From a virus, in the IMG/VR virus record IMGVR_UViG_3300021364_000407, positions 1 to 23,515 of that record: DNA of 23,515 bases; one strand, 5' to 3'. This document shows, one piece after another, positions 982 to 23,120 of this stretch. The translations under genes were made by a program, and so were the position numbers. The notes under the pieces were generated by a model that was not told the DNA's origin, did no database searches, and saw only the letters and a list, made by a program, of their open reading frames with translations. Each line of letters starts with the position of its first letter. Position 1 is the stretch's first letter.

Positions 982-1013
982 TATAGTAGCTCCTTAAATA
1001 AGCGAGTTTGTGT

Positions 1014-1043
1014 TTTGGTGTCCCCGAAGGCGACATATATAAT
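1014..1043 (+). promoter_or_regulatory. Weak candidate sigma70-type promoter for the plus-strand gene
   Basis: TATAAT at 1038-1043 is preceded by TTTGGT at 1014-1019, 18 bases away. It would drive the divergent gene starting at 1107. The -35 match is poor and the area is AT-rich, so this is only a candidate. No late box is seen in plus orientation. Confidence 0.25.
1020..1034 (-). promoter_or_regulatory. UUCG-loop hairpin in the hsp20 leader
   Basis: On the minus strand GTCGCC-TTCG-GGGAC folds into a short stem with one bulged G, capped by the very stable UUCG tetraloop. It would lie at or near the 5' end of an hsp20 mRNA started from the box at 1048-1041. T4 mRNAs use comparable UUCG hairpins. 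Role here is inferred. Confidence 0.4.
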
Positions 1044-1048
1044 TTATA
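1041..1048 (-). promoter_or_regulatory. Candidate late promoter box for hsp20
   Basis: Minus-strand TATAAATT, one base off the T4 consensus TATAAATA, 60 bases before the hsp20 ATG. It is the only plausible late box in this divergent intergenic region, but the mismatch lowers confidence. Confidence 0.4.
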
Positions 1049-1106
1049 AGAGCACGACAAAAAAGTGAAGTGCTGTCCACCGAACTAAACTATAGGGTTT
1101 TCCAGA

Positions 1107-1943
1107 ATGAATTTATTGCATGATTACAATATTATCAACGATGAAACTATTTCAAAAACATTTGAGTTGTCAGAAACTATTGAAGAAAAAATTTACACTG
1201 ACAAAATTTCTGGACTGAAATATGGAGTCTTAAGAAATTTTTATAAGGACCCTGTTGCGGTAAAAGAATTTTTTAAAAACTTTCCTCTGTTAACTAAAAC
1301 AGTATCAAACTCTCCAGGTATTCAACTTTATTTCTCAATCACTATGAATGAGAGTTTGAAACCAATATACAAATATCTCCACACCATGTTGCAGAGAAAT
1401 AAATTTCCATGCAATCCAGAACCACAATTTCATGTTCCTGTCTGGGAAACATATTGCAATTTTTATTGGAAGAACATGTATGCTAGCAGAGCAAGTATGA
1501 CTCCACACTTTGATAACTTCAACCTTGGATTTAATATCTGGTTGACAGAAGATGTTCCGTCAGGAACAGACTTCTATAGTTATCGTTGGAAAGACTATGA
1601 ACCAGTTTACTTTGTGGAAGAATTTAGAAATCAAAATGAACATGAGTTTGATGATTTCTTCAGAGAACTATGCGAATACTATGAAGATGGTGAAGAGATA
1701 GATTGGAATCCTGATGAAATTGACAACTCTTCTGTGTGGGAAAAATATCACACCATTGATCCTGAATATAATTCAGCAACATTCTATCCTGGCATTTTCT
1801 TTCACATGCCTTCTGTTCATCCAGACAAGTATGATGACAACTTCTTACGCCATTCTCAAGTAATCACATACGCTTACACACAATTGAGAGAGTATCAACA
1901 TTACTGGAGATTCTATAAATCAACTGGTGATTTCTTGAAATAA
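1107..1943 (+). CDS. Probable 2-oxoglutarate/Fe(II) oxygenase-like protein
   Basis: A 278-residue protein and the only plus-strand gene in the window. Residues 133-140 (PHFDNFNL) hold an H-x-D pair (H134, D136). After it come GFNIWLTEDVPSGTDFY and, near the C-terminus, a second histidine cluster (H233, H238) with R248-H249. That is the layout expected of the double-stranded beta-helix fold of 2OG/Fe(II) dioxygenases: an HxD metal pair, a distal metal His, and a basic residue for 2OG. Such enzymes hydroxylate proteins, nucleic acids or small molecules; no substrate can be inferred. An acidic insert (about residues 165-220) separates the metal motifs. The stop codon lies inside the A-tract of the terminator used by regA on the other strand. 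Which distal His binds iron is uncertain; the fold call rests on motif layout only. Confidence 0.6.
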   Translation: MNLLHDYNIINDETISKTFELSETIEEKIYTDKISGLKYGVLRNFYKDPVAVKEFFKNFPLLTKTVSNSPGIQLYFSITMNESLKPIYKYLHTMLQRNKFPCNPEPQFHVPVWETYCNFYWKNMYASRASMTPHFDNFNLGFNIWLTEDVPSGTDFYSYRWKDYEPVYFVEEFRNQNEHEFDDFFRELCEYYEDGEEIDWNPDEIDNSSVWEKYHTIDPEYNSATFYPGIFFHMPSVHPDKYDDNFLRHSQVITYAYTQLREYQHYWRFYKSTGDFLK

Positions 1944-1965: not shown

Positions 1966-2013
1966 GCGGGTGTTCCGATTGTAGAGTGTGCCGCACGAAA
2001 AGCACAAAATTAT

Positions 2014-13363: not shown

Positions 13364-13371
13364 TATTTAGA
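13364..13371 (-). promoter_or_regulatory. Candidate late box for the gp19-like gene
   Basis: Minus-strand TCTAAATA, sharing the TAAATA core with the other late boxes, 18 bases before the ATG at 13346 and directly after the gp23 terminator. Confidence 0.4.
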
Positions 13372-13372
13372 T

Positions 13373-13401
13373 AAAAAAAAGACCCCTCCTGAGAGGGGTC
13401 T
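13373..13401 (-). terminator. Strong terminator of gp23
   Basis: On the minus strand AGACCCCTC (13401-13393) pairs perfectly with GAGGGGTCT (13388-13380) across a four-base loop, followed by T (13379-13373). It sits 24 bases past the gp23 stop and ends the late capsid unit. The 3' arm and T-tract share a 16-base identical stretch with the regA terminator. Confidence 0.92.
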
Positions 13402-13424
13402 GTAAGGACCTGTGTGAAGCGATA

Positions 13425-14777
13425 TCACATGAGGTTGGTAACACGGACACGTCTGTAGTAGACGTTGGTGCTGAGGTTGCCAGCGGCGACTGGATCGGAG
13501 TCGGTAAGAGCGGTAAGACCCTTGGCGAATGGATTGAGTACCATGCCATAGCGAGTCTTGAAACCGATCTTGGGCTGGAAGGTGTCAGGACCGATTGCAC
13601 GAACCATCTGCAGAGGAACGTATGGGCAATAGAACAGACCAGCATCGTAAGGGGAAGTACCCTTGTAACCAGCGATAAAGAACTGAGCAGCGTTCTGACC
13701 CTCGGAAGGCAGTGCCGAATAAGGATCAATGTAAACGCGGATACGACCATTCAGAGTACCGACGAAGGTGCTGCCAGTGTCGTCAACGTTCAGACCTGTG
13801 TTGAGAGCAGGGTTGTAGTCAAGGACGCCTGCCATGGACAGAGCAGAAGCAACGTCTGAAGAACAGACGAGCATGTTGCCCTTTCCTCTACGAGTCTCTT
13901 TCGCGATGGCGTTCATTTCACGCTCAATCTGGAAGAGGAGACCCTTGAACTTCTCAACGCTCCAGCGACCGTTGGAGTCAACGTCAAGGTCAAAAGTACC
14001 CTGAGCAGCAGTGTTCTGCTGAGCACCAGGCTTAGCGGAACGGAAGACTGTACGGACGACTTCTCTGTTGATTTCGGTGAGGATCTCAGCAGAGAGGATG
14101 TTGGCGAGTTCAGTCTCGGCATCCAGACCATGAATTGCCTTCAGGTCTTGTGCGAGTTCAATGCTGTACTCAGCTTTCAGAGCACGGCTCTTAGCGGTAA
14201 CAGCAATCTTCTCAATGCTGAATGCCATTTCTGGGAATACGCTGGTAGCAGCTTCGCCCAGAGCTTCAGCAGTTGAGGTGGACATTCCAGTGTCGGAATC
14301 GTAGGTGCCACCATCGTTGAGAACAGCGGGGTTGGTTCCTGTCTGAGCAGTACCACCAGTGCTGGTGCTGCTGTTATAGGGAGTACCAGACCATGCTTGG
14401 TTAACTTCGTTGTAGAAGGTCTCAGAACCTGTCTGACCCTCATACTTGGAGCGCATGGCGAAGATCAGTCCAGTAGGACCGTTCATAGGCTGAACGCCAC
14501 AGATGTCATAGGCGATCAGATTAGGCATTGAGCGACGGATCAGTGAGATCAGTACGGGGTCAAAACCTGCGACGTTACCAGCGCCAGTTGTAGGTGTATT
14601 GATAGGACCAGCGTTAGTAGGCGCTTCGGTCAGCATTCTCTCCTCGCGGAGGAATTTTTCTTGGTTCTCCAGCAGTTGAGAAGTAACGGCTTTCTTGTAG
14701 CTATCTTTGATCTCGGGGAGATCGCCATGAGACAGAACAGGTGCCCACTTCTCCTGGAGTTGTTCGGTATTGAACAT
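13425..14777 (-). CDS. 23: Major capsid protein gp23
   Basis: A 450-residue HK97-fold capsid protein (T4: 521; cyanophage forms are shorter). Diagnostic segments are FDPVLISLIRRSMPNLIAYDICGVQ at about 72-96 and GPTGLIFAMRSKYEGQ near 100-115; the C-terminal half includes ERKMNAIAKETRRGKGN-like and GYKGTSPYDAGLFYCPYVPL segments. The N-terminal about 51 residues are a helical, charged propeptide ending in LTE at 49-51, a match to the gp21 protease rule (L/I)-x-E, so cleavage before APTNAG is predicted. A good ribosome site (AAGGAGA) precedes the ATG. It has its own late box upstream and a strong terminator downstream, as expected for the most abundant virion protein. Confidence 0.98.
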   Translation of the reverse strand: MFNTEQLQEKWAPVLSHGDLPEIKDSYKKAVTSQLLENQEKFLREERMLTEAPTNAGPINTPTTGAGNVAGFDPVLISLIRRSMPNLIAYDICGVQPMNGPTGLIFAMRSKYEGQTGSETFYNEVNQAWSGTPYNSSTSTGGTAQTGTNPAVLNDGGTYDSDTGMSTSTAEALGEAATSVFPEMAFSIEKIAVTAKSRALKAEYSIELAQDLKAIHGLDAETELANILSAEILTEINREVVRTVFRSAKPGAQQNTAAQGTFDLDVDSNGRWSVEKFKGLLFQIEREMNAIAKETRRGKGNMLVCSSDVASALSMAGVLDYNPALNTGLNVDDTGSTFVGTLNGRIRVYIDPYSALPSEGQNAAQFFIAGYKGTSPYDAGLFYCPYVPLQMVRAIGPDTFQPKIGFKTRYGMVLNPFAKGLTALTDSDPVAAGNLSTNVYYRRVRVTNLM

Positions 14778-21231: not shown

Positions 21232-21453
21232 CTACCAGTCTGGGTATTCCCATCTCTTAGAATCGTTTTTTCTTGCATTAGAAACTCTGTGAATAGTGCA
21301 TTCCTTACACTCATAAGAGTATGATGATACTGTCGGTCTACCCTTTCGTATCTTATAAAAGTCCGTTGATAAATCTTTTTTTACACCACAAGATCTACAC
21401 CTTCTTTCTTTGAAAAGGAGATGTTCTAGTTCAAACTCCTCTTCAAAATCCAT
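21232..21453 (-). CDS. Small zinc-binding protein between gp17 and gp18
   Basis: A 73-residue protein with two CxxC pairs, C19-x2-C22 (RRCRSCGVKKDLSTDFY) and C49-x2-C52 (YECKECTIHRV), separated by a basic loop. The 'CRxCG-x-K-x-L-x-x-FY ... YxCKEC' arrangement is the zinc-binding N-terminal part seen in many phage HNH endonucleases, but no HNH catalytic domain follows, so this is a stand-alone zinc module. The N-terminus is acidic (MDFEEEFELE). The start overlaps the terminase stop (TAATG), so it is co-translated with gp17. DNA binding or help to packaging is possible but unproven. Confidence 0.8.
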   Translation of the reverse strand: MDFEEEFELEHLLFKERRCRSCGVKKDLSTDFYKIRKGRPTVSSYSYECKECTIHRVSNARKNDSKRWEYPDW

Positions 21454-23120
21454 TATAGATAAGACCCCATGTAAGTAAACTCTGAAGATACATCGCCATA
21501 TTCATCCAAGAACCAACGATCACCAGACTCATCCACAAAACTTTCCTGATCTTCTAGACCATCGGAGATAAAACCAAATGGTGCCATATCCTGTTCAATT
21601 TGATTCTTCTGTTCATCATAGATTCTCTGACGGACATCATTGTCTGTCATTTCTTTAAAGTAATCTTGTACTGCTAACCAACAGAAGATTACGAGACACA
21701 TCGCAAGGTCATCGTGACATCCTTCCTCTGCCTCAAACGAATCACGTTTAGAAATGAACGTCGTGAGTTCTGCGATAGTCTCATAGTCTGGGATGATTAA
21801 TTTATCATCCTCAATAAAAGTCTTTAGGTTCAGACATCCAACCTTCTTCACGGTCTTAGACATCTTGACACCGAGTTGTGTTTTCTTTCCAGAGAATCCT
21901 GTGCCGACGATCTGCCCAGCACGTCCTCTCATGGCACACATAAGAATATGATCATACTCCAGATCAAAGTGCATCATGGATGCTACCTGATCTCCAATAT
22001 CATTAACTTCGGTCAGAACGTATGCTCTGTTATATGCTTTCGCTACATCAGTAATAACAGTCGGGAACATGATTGCCTTAATCTCATTGTTCCTGTATCG
22101 TGCTACAAGCCTGTAAGGAAATTTTGTAATGTCAAAAACCAGAAACGCACTATAATCACTGCCCACACCACGGGCAACGTCAACAGTAACAATGTAGTCA
22201 TGTTCTTTCTTAGGTTCTTCATAGACTACCATACCTTTGTTATTATTAGAAATAGGATCTTCATAAACCATAGTGCGAAGTTTGCTCGCAGCAATAAGAG
22301 TATCAACTGATCCAAGAAATTCACACTCAAATTCCTGTGTGAACTGTCGTAATGATGTGTTTGCAATTGTTTGTTCTTTCCACTTAGCGTCTCTACCAGG
22401 AACCTGAGACCAGTGGACTTCTGTGGTGATATATTCATTTTTCTTTCTCTCAGCATCATGCCAAAGTTTATAGAACATGTTCATTCCATTTGGCGTGGAG
22501 ATGATAATAACCTTCGTAGACTTACCAGACGAGATGGTAGGATATACAGAGGAGAAGAACTGTTCTGCGATATGAGTTGGAACGAACGCAAATTCGTCCA
22601 AGAAGATGATGTTGAATGACATACCTCGGACAGCAGAACTGGAGGTAGATGCTGCCATGATCTTAGAACCATTCTCCAGTTCTAGAGATCCTTTGTTCCA
22701 TGACACAATACCTTGTTGCATCCACTTAGGAAGATTCTCATAGGCAAGTTGTAACCTGCCCAAGAGTTCCCTGGACGTAGTAAGTTTGTTTGCCAGAATA
22801 CCAATGTTTACGTTATCATTGAAGATAGCATAATGTAACAGGTAAGATACCACCGTAGTGGACTTACCTGTCTGTCGTGGTAGTTTAGCAATGTTAAATC
22901 GGTTCGTGTGGAACCTGTTAATCATGTCCTCTTGGAAGTCCCACATTTTAAACGGAACAAGACCTTCGTCCAGAGAAACAATTTTGATATAATTTCTAGT
23001 AAAGTAAACTGGATTTTGAGCACACTTCAACCACTCCTGAATTTGTTCGGGAGTAAATTGCATTTCAACATTCGCCGCTTTTAGATTAGGCGAACCTTTA
23101 TATATTTGGTTGGTGCTCAT
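21453..23120 (-). CDS. 17: Terminase large subunit gp17
   Basis: A 555-residue DNA-packaging motor (T4: 610). The N-terminal ATPase has Walker A LPRQTGKST at 80-88, Walker B IIFLDE at 171-176 and the coupling motif STPNG at 208-212. The C-terminal RNase H-like nuclease begins around residue 310 with YIVTVDVARGVGSDYSAFLVFD and ends with GCHDDLAMCLVIF near 480-492, giving the expected acidic metal ligands. The enzyme pumps and cuts DNA into proheads through gp20. The start overlaps the 60-residue gene upstream (ATGA). No recognisable gp16 small terminase is in the window. Confidence 0.97.
   Translation of the reverse strand: MSTNQIYKGSPNLKAANVEMQFTPEQIQEWLKCAQNPVYFTRNYIKIVSLDEGLVPFKMWDFQEDMINRFHTNRFNIAKLPRQTGKSTTVVSYLLHYAIFNDNVNIGILANKLTTSRELLGRLQLAYENLPKWMQQGIVSWNKGSLELENGSKIMAASTSSSAVRGMSFNIIFLDEFAFVPTHIAEQFFSSVYPTISSGKSTKVIIISTPNGMNMFYKLWHDAERKKNEYITTEVHWSQVPGRDAKWKEQTIANTSLRQFTQEFECEFLGSVDTLIAASKLRTMVYEDPISNNNKGMVVYEEPKKEHDYIVTVDVARGVGSDYSAFLVFDITKFPYRLVARYRNNEIKAIMFPTVITDVAKAYNRAYVLTEVNDIGDQVASMMHFDLEYDHILMCAMRGRAGQIVGTGFSGKKTQLGVKMSKTVKKVGCLNLKTFIEDDKLIIPDYETIAELTTFISKRDSFEAEEGCHDDLAMCLVIFCWLAVQDYFKEMTDNDVRQRIYDEQKNQIEQDMAPFGFISDGLEDQESFVDESGDRWFLDEYGDVSSEFTYMGSYL

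Follow-up and report, generated by a model that had tools for sequence, protein, structure and literature searches.

The lone plus-strand gene at the regA–hsp20 junction of a T4-like cyanophage probably encodes a functional 2-oxoglutarate (2OG)/Fe(II) oxygenase, likelier a protein side-chain hydroxylase, and appears to be carried as an exchangeable cassette, as judged from sequence comparisons and a structural model. The window, that is, the whole stretch of DNA analyzed, comprises a single 23,515-base virus record, a fragment of a T4-like cyanophage core. On the minus strand, the terminase gene (21453–23120) comes first, followed by genes for tail, head, replication, and clamp-loader functions and then by regA, hsp20, and a LicD-like ORF. 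Among the 60 records listed out of 506, the best isolate for the window hsp20 was Synechococcus phage DSL-LC02 from Dishui Lake, with 59% identity. The features around the junction are summarized in Table 1.

Table 1. Genes and candidate control elements at the regA–hsp20 junction of the window
Feature	Position	Strand	Remarks
LicD-like nucleotidyltransferase ORF adjoining hsp20	2–454	other strand than oxygenase	Pfam E 2e-8
hsp20, divergent neighbor	547–981	−	phrog_432, E 1.4e-51
ROSE-like two-hairpin hsp20 leader (predicted)	979–1043	−	hairpin I, 1034–1020; hairpin II, 1006–990
Weak candidate −35, TTGGTG	1015–1020	+	17 bp from TATAAT
Divergent leader of the oxygenase gene	1035–1106	+	67–71 of 72 positions identical to three other occupied contigs
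TATAAT, candidate −10 of the oxygenase gene	1038–1043	+	sequence; kept in 4 occupied records
TATAAATT, candidate T4-late-type box for hsp20	1041–1048	−	overlaps TATAAT by three bases
Possible 5′ hairpin AGCAC...GTGCT in the oxygenase leader	1051–1074	+	read from sequence
Oxygenase gene	1107–1943	+	278 codons, ATG start, intact ORF; PHROG 1644 family
Terminator-like hairpin after regA	1950–1965	−	just beyond the oxygenase stop codon; listed by scan
regA, convergent neighbor	2014–2454	−	phrog_242, E 3.2e-65; Pfam Translat_reg

The oxygenase gene is the only evident plus-strand gene of the window. All 28 minus-strand ORFs scanned matched a PHROG (8 at E ≤ 0.01 and 20 at E ≤ 1e-5). Eleven of the 23 plus-strand ORFs of at least 60 aa were scanned against PHROG; the oxygenase gene was matched at E 5e-20, nine of the other ten had no match, and one was marginal (E 0.0066). 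These counts agree with the original prediction of a lone plus-strand gene. The span assigned to it, 982–1943, contains the intact ORF (1107–1943), and its first part, 982–1106, is the intergenic region common to the oxygenase gene and hsp20, in which no other ORF of at least 60 aa was found. Elsewhere in the window, a 127-aa minus-strand ORF (13367–13750) overlaps the end of the major capsid gene (13425–14777, minus strand) in another frame.

The predicted protein matched the PHROG 1644 profile with an E value of 4.9e-20 over profile positions 3–212 of 220. Pfam DUF6445 was matched by 22 of the 24 alignment members at E ≤ 0.01; the window protein, which scored 15.4 bits against a curated cut-off of 24 bits, was not among them. 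In a residue alignment of 32 sequences, including the window protein and near-duplicates, H134, D136, H233, and R248 were invariant (32/32), as were P70, G71, P133, G153, T154, and N222. H238 was present in only two of the aligned sequences, and position 250 (RxS) was S, T, A, and V in 25, 5, 1, and 1 of them, respectively. Judging from this alignment, H134, D136, and H233 are putative metal ligands of an HxD...H facial triad, and R248 is the putative 2OG-binding arginine of the oxygenase family. The HxD...H...R layout proposed earlier was recovered, with H233 and not H238 as the distal ligand. An acidic insert between the metal motifs had also been proposed; it is present in the window protein, where residues 158–210 contain 18 D/E and 4 K/R (net −14), but the matching segment has a net charge of only −5 and −6 in the two nearest distinct alleles, and it was rejected as a conserved feature. 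PDB sequence searches yielded no significant match (best E 0.43), and one profile match, at a non-significant E of 0.2, was to the mimivirus lysyl hydroxylase aligned at HxD. An NCBIfam scan of six family members gave no match for five and a match at chance level for one, scans of viral_contigs with the window, L052, and L054 proteins gave no close member beyond L001 and the query contigs, and a literature search on DUF6445 found no paper.

The PHROG 1644/DUF6445 proteins of the cyanophages S-ShM2, S-H9-1, S-CAM4, Syn9, and S-SSM7 have the same four catalytic-type residues and align with the window protein over most of the length, with 19–29% identity, and are about 40–60 aa shorter, partly at the C-terminus. 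Unlike the window gene, which is at the regA–hsp20 junction, their genes have head, head-tail, or psbA/psbD genes or a cluster of 2OG oxygenases nearby, and family members elsewhere are found in the vicinity of genes for head, head-tail, or S74-peptidase proteins or of psbA, or within a 2OG oxygenase cluster. In S-H9-1, a single small ORF separates the homologue from the major head gene that precedes it, and phrog_1644 carries the label "minor coat protein" in PHROG; both would suit a structural protein or minor coat protein in which the oxygenase fold has been kept and the activity lost. We consider such a protein improbable, because the H/D/H/R set, which would be needless in a non-catalytic fold, is kept even in the relatives with 19–29% identity, because 12 of the 24 alignment members matched 2OG-FeII_Oxy_3 at E ≤ 0.01, and because homologues are found near other annotated 2OG oxygenases, adjacent to them in S-ShM2 and Sf-FS3 and separated from them by a single gene in S-CAM4 and S-SSM7. 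The family profile was searched in eight records chosen by hsp20 (DSL-LC02, S-BM3, S-SM1, S-SKS1, HTVC008M, ACG-2014f, P-HM2, and S-H38) and in six others chosen as holding a member. Of the eight, P-HM2 was matched below 1e-10 with an internal stop, HTVC008M at 2.5e-7, and DSL-LC02 and S-SM1 near 6e-4, and the other four gave no match.

The structure of the window protein was predicted with AlphaFold2 from an input of 24 rows, consisting of the window and IMG/VR sequences alone, and the model had a pLDDT of 76.4 and a pTM of 0.77. In the model, H233 and R248 mark the beginnings of two successive strands or lie right beside them. The predicted fold is a double-stranded beta-helix, closest to OGFOD1 and lysyl and prolyl hydroxylases. 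In a second-look structural alignment, OGFOD1 reached a Z score of 12.8 (181 residues, 3.3 Å), and the mimivirus lysyl hydroxylase, LH3, and PHD2 reached 12.6, 11.9, and 10.9, respectively; 490 of 1000 re-aligned PDB chains had a Z score of at least 8. The 50 rows listed belong, by title or as known enzymes, to the 2OG/Fe(II) superfamily, except two named "uncharacterized." OGFOD1/Tpa1, mimivirus L230, and human LH3 share the predicted fold with Z scores of 10.7–12.8 over 162–199 residues, but only 12–16% of the residues are identical. Foldseek ranking by E value placed NO66 first with poor TM-scores, and models of unnamed viral proteins reached a TM-score of up to 0.69 over the query. The fold is the one expected from the original prediction of a 2OG oxygenase, and together with the invariant HxD/H/R residues it indicates that the gene product is very probably a 2OG/Fe(II) oxygenase.

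The solved enzymes ranking first, namely the first 14 structural rows by Z score, were OGFOD1 and lysyl hydroxylases, and for this reason alone a protein side chain is the more likely substrate than a small molecule. This is a lean, not a result, since the small-molecule enzymes PolD, PasI, EvdO2, and AsqJ were close behind in the same PDB list. Their presence there, and the keeping of the LicD-like ORF beside hsp20 in L052 and L053, would fit an oxygenase that modifies nucleotides, sugars, or lipids in concert with the LicD-like gene, which lies downstream of hsp20. We rate this as rather unlikely though a serious alternative, given the hydroxylases at the head of the structural list and the LicD-like gene itself, which is encoded on the opposite strand and shows 95% identity in the two contigs compared, one of which, L126, has the swapped oxygenase of 55% identity. 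Many 2OG oxygenases are carried by cyanophages. Passages of PMC3037559 mention DNA repair and 2OG metabolism as proposed roles of cyanophage oxygenases.

The distribution of the gene was analyzed in a scan for hsp20 relatives that covered 74 contigs, 12 of which (L052–L063) had an hsp20 with at least 61% identity to that of the window. Three of the 12 had an oxygenase homologue, likewise oriented, between regA and hsp20, namely L053 (the same contig as L001), L052 (the same contig as L126), and L054, whose proteins were 96%, 54–55%, and 47–48% identical to the window protein, respectively. The other nine had a junction of 98–158 bp without the gene; near-copies occur among these empty contigs, L055 being identical to L056 at 1025/1025 positions and to L057 at 1019/1025. 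Four occupied records are known, including the window, and the contigs are fragments. The occupied L054 and the empty L057, with its 158-bp junction, were identical at 434/435 positions of regA and 429/429 positions of hsp20. Judging from these contigs, the gene is optional at the regA–hsp20 junction and is gained, lost, or swapped among relatives. The earlier suggestion of an inserted accessory gene is in line with occupied and empty sites in otherwise near-identical flanks, and the gene proved to be sporadic rather than universal. The location had been described as the edge of the core; the site is inside the replication core.

Comparison with L126 revealed a local exchange. The neighbors of the swapped allele in L126 were 95–100% identical in protein to those of the window (97% for hsp20 and 100% for regA), and only the oxygenase fell to 55%. 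The oxygenase gene had a dS of 1.71, a dN of 0.379, and a pS of 0.673 between the two, compared with a dS of 0.05–0.44, a dN of at most 0.028, and a pS of 0.05–0.33 in the twelve other genes. Identity per 60 bp dropped from 0.97 to 0.42–0.75 at position 1974 and returned to 0.82 at 1149 and 0.98 at 1089. The dN/dS ratios of the oxygenase gene against the window were about 0.12, 0.22, and 0.23 for L127, L126, and L054, respectively, and the alleles are therefore kept functional under purifying selection. The near-saturated dS in one gene, the low dS in twelve neighbors, and boundaries at the gene ends indicate, on the basis of these alignments, that the L126 allele is a recombinational replacement and not the product of fast change in place. 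Rapid adaptive change in place would likewise leave the extreme divergence confined to the oxygenase among the thirteen genes compared, but it is very improbable given a pS near saturation, the low dN/dS, divergence that stops at the gene ends, and regA terminators that are unlike each other. Ancient inheritance of the gene as an ordinary member of the locus, with many losses among relatives and no horizontal exchange, would explain why its position and orientation do not vary among the four occupied records; we regard this as unlikely, because it does not account for an allele of 55% identity among neighbors of 95–100%.

The divergent leader of the oxygenase gene was far more conserved than the gene behind it. 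Of the 72 bases before the ATG, 71, 70, and 67 were identical between the window and L053, L052, and L054, respectively, and the first 30 coding bases already differed at 2, 6, and 11 positions. The leader was 93–99% identical in these three contigs, while the encoded proteins were 48–96% identical. In viral_contigs, two exact 22-mers of the leader hit the three other allele contigs and no further ones. The leader segment was absent from the empty sites printed, where hsp20 had another AT-rich box. The window and L053 have the same regA terminator, whereas those of L052, of L054, and of the empty sites are unlike it. Because the terminator, the gene, and the leader differ or are absent at the empty sites, the occupied alleles bring the regA terminator, the gene, and the divergent promoter segment with them. 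With its own conserved divergent leader and a terminator between the gene and regA, the gene may well be under separate control, as had been suggested; the indication is one of anatomy. Between the regA stop codon and the terminator, a stem-loop-like stretch, GTGC...TTCGTGCG...GCAC (about 1967–2013, minus strand), was observed in the window and in L052–L057, a related stretch, CGTAG...CTACG, follows regA in DSL-LC02, and none was seen after regA in L058, L060, L062, and L063.

A sigma70-like −10 sequence in place of a late box had been proposed for the oxygenase gene. The TATAAT is a plausible −10, but the −35 is weak, with 3/6 matches, and the −10 overlaps the late-like TATAAATT facing hsp20. 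A promoter scan requiring at least 4/6 matches per hexamer did not list the TATAAT/TTGGTG pair. The T4 late sequence is quoted as TATAAAT in passages of PMC3037559. We infer from the two overlapping boxes that the oxygenase gene and hsp20 may be timed differently. A plus-strand ACTATAGGG near the ATG was considered as a T7-type promoter and was dropped, with no test in its support.

Opposite orientation had been taken as a sign of insertion, and this argument turned out to be weak. In a non-random sample of 24 annotated phage hsp20 regions, 15 had a gene divergent to hsp20 (S-BM3, S-SM1, S-H38, S-SSM5, S-RIM12, ACG-2014d, S-IOM18, S-RIM2, Syn33, P-RSM3, P-TIM40, ACG-2014a, S-RIM14, S-RIM8, and Syn9) and nine had none (DSL-LC02, S-SKS1, HTVC008M, ACG-2014f, P-HM2, S-CAM1, S-SSM7, S-H9-1, and S-CAM4); a gene divergent to hsp20 is ordinary by itself. 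The divergent genes of S-BM3, S-SM1, S-SSM5, and Syn33 are numbered T4-GC 235–237, or part of it. This block shares with the oxygenase gene the junction and the orientation divergent to hsp20, and a similar leader was found in 4 of 12 phages, but the proteins differ: GC 236 of S-SM1 matches DUF6322, and GC 235 and GC 237 have no Pfam match. The leader comparison covered 12 of 14 regions, the two shortest (S-SSM5 and S-H38) being left out, and the numbers of shuffles out of 1000 that aligned as well were 0, 0, 8, and 19 for S-BM3, S-RIM2, S-SM1, and S-IOM18, respectively; the other 8 of the 12 phage leaders did not match. The likeness rests on this shuffle test, since a blastn search of phages with the leader returned nothing significant (12 records, all with E 9), the only cyanophage among them being S-BM3, matched at its hsp20 leader. 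At the place of the 1051–1074 hairpin, S-BM3 has AACAC...GTGTT. From these comparisons, we read the regA–hsp20 junction as an old divergent docking site with changing cargo. Annotated 2OG-Fe(II) oxygenases were also seen directly downstream of hsp20 in HTVC008M (L009 4463–5017) and S-SSM7 (L143 1218–1401), so oxygenases recur around this core junction. According to passages of PMC3037559, cyanophage core genes include hsp20 and dioxygenases, and proteins shared by co-isolated phages have 21 to 100% identity, with Hsp20 among the low ones.

The hsp20 leader is predicted, from sequence and by analogy, to be a ROSE-like RNA thermometer. In hairpin II, CUCGCUU pairs with the Shine-Dalgarno sequence AAGGAG, with one G left unpaired. 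A set of 58 distinct phage hsp20 leaders was obtained from 99 loci, the leader starts being picked by the best Shine-Dalgarno sequence, which favors finding one, and U(U/C)GCU followed by GGAG was present in 47 of the 58, including the window, compared with a mean of 0.8 and a maximum of 5 in shuffled sequences. Pairs were counted in 54 of the 58 leaders, aligned without structure; L064, L091, L109, and L124 were dropped, three of which lack the motif, and L005, L062, and L063 were kept although misaligned. In the named structure, 90.9% of the cells were paired against 81.3% in shuffles (0/500), a figure flattered by the dropped rows, and 66 cells were changed on both sides against 26.2 (0/500) with a covariation score of 0.389 against 0.230 (0/500 as high), all three measures being inflated by relatedness. 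Sliding the pairing partners by one base reduced the paired cells to 63%. Changes on both sides were found in 5/6 pairs of helix I, and the support was weaker for the Shine-Dalgarno hairpin. Two of the five structure measures failed to beat the shuffles (206/500 and 297/500), and RNAalifold predicted only helix I from the leader alignment.

At the Rfam gathering score, the leader had no match (ROSE_2, 19.3 versus 65 bits; ROSE_3, 17.3 versus 43 bits). ROSE_2 (E 0.057) and ROSE_3 (E 0.15) were the only Rfam families listed in the 171-base stretch. Of eight further loci, two had ROSE_3 listed at the leader, L081 with E 0.0038 and L054 with E 4.2; it was not listed in the remaining six, among which the leader of L101 falls off the contig. 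A covariance model of the leader gave 57 matches at E ≤ 0.01 in 67 sources, mostly its own training rows; 56 shared the hsp20 reading frame and lay no more than 66 bases from its projected first codon, and the remaining one (L014, E 0.0086) was elsewhere than at an hsp20 start. In four genomes outside the training set (Syn9, S-SSM7, S-H9-1, and S-CAM4), the best match ended at the annotated hsp20 start in two and three codons inside it in two, and in DSL-LC02 the model found nothing at hsp20. In P-HM2 (L011 3917–3991), the annotated hsp20 start is 24 codons upstream of the leader-model start and would place the element inside the reading frame; one of the two, the annotated start or that of the model, may be in error. 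The predicted mean unpaired fraction of the Shine-Dalgarno sequence rose only from 0.25 at 15°C to 0.35 at 45°C, compared with 0.36 to 0.41 for shuffled upstream sequences, and thermodynamic folding of the hsp20 leader reproduced no clear heat switch. These alignments suggest that the ROSE-like element recurs before the hsp20 genes of cyanophages, of a pelagiphage, and of uncultured relatives. The Pseudomonas ibpA thermometer, as described in passages of PMC3669281, likewise has about 60 nt and two hairpins before a small heat shock protein gene, with U(U/C)GCU paired to the Shine-Dalgarno sequence and a G opposite. Compared with ROSE-like thermometers, the phage hsp20 leader scores below the Rfam gathering thresholds, and thermosensing here is a prediction. 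According to passages of PMC4166951, a ROSE-like leader also occurs in the cyanobacterium Anabaena variabilis. The only three phage thermometers named in passages of PMC11182007 are an early case (Altuvia 1989), which is lambda cIII according to passages of PMC4166951, SP-beta blyA, and a sigma70 gene; in the literature portions searched, no report of a ROSE-like leader in phage hsp20 was found.

The cassette would consist of the regA terminator and the oxygenase gene, flanked by two stable ends, on one side the regA terminus and on the other a conserved divergent control region, which would serve hsp20 in one direction and the cassette gene in the other. Alleles may be swapped by homologous recombination of co-infecting phages through the near-identical leader and regA. 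Gain or loss of the cassette would have to use the regA and hsp20 flanks, because the leader is missing from the empty sites. The TATAAT and the late-like box that overlaps it would give early or middle expression of the oxygenase gene and late expression of hsp20. More tentatively, and with less confidence than in the exchangeable oxygenase itself, the junction may be a docking site whose shared promoter region fires early or mid into the cargo and late into a thermometer-bearing hsp20 mRNA, the cargo being a 2OG oxygenase here and T4-GC 235–237 elsewhere.

PeSL cassettes, which mediate modular shuffling in T4-like phages, allow ectopic exchange through several copies per genome; the oxygenase leader had one match in the window, a 23.5-kb fragment. 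PeSL cassettes of T4-like phages resemble the present arrangement in that a promoter region and a terminator bracket the exchanged gene, as described in passages of PMC4503421, but here one divergent leader is shared with a core gene and the terminator is exchanged, not conserved. The same passages doubt the PeSL mechanism for their own cyanophage case. What is new here is the anatomy, in which one divergent leader stays constant while the gene behind it is swapped.

These results demonstrate gene exchange at regA–hsp20, inside the supposedly stable replication core. The natural pair of near-identical flanks with and without the gene, together with diverged alleles under one leader, makes the oxygenase testable by comparison. 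If the docking-site reading is true, the hsp20 leader would represent a widespread phage class of RNA thermometer and chaperone output would depend on temperature; if the ROSE-like leader works, aquatic phages would tune their chaperone to temperature.
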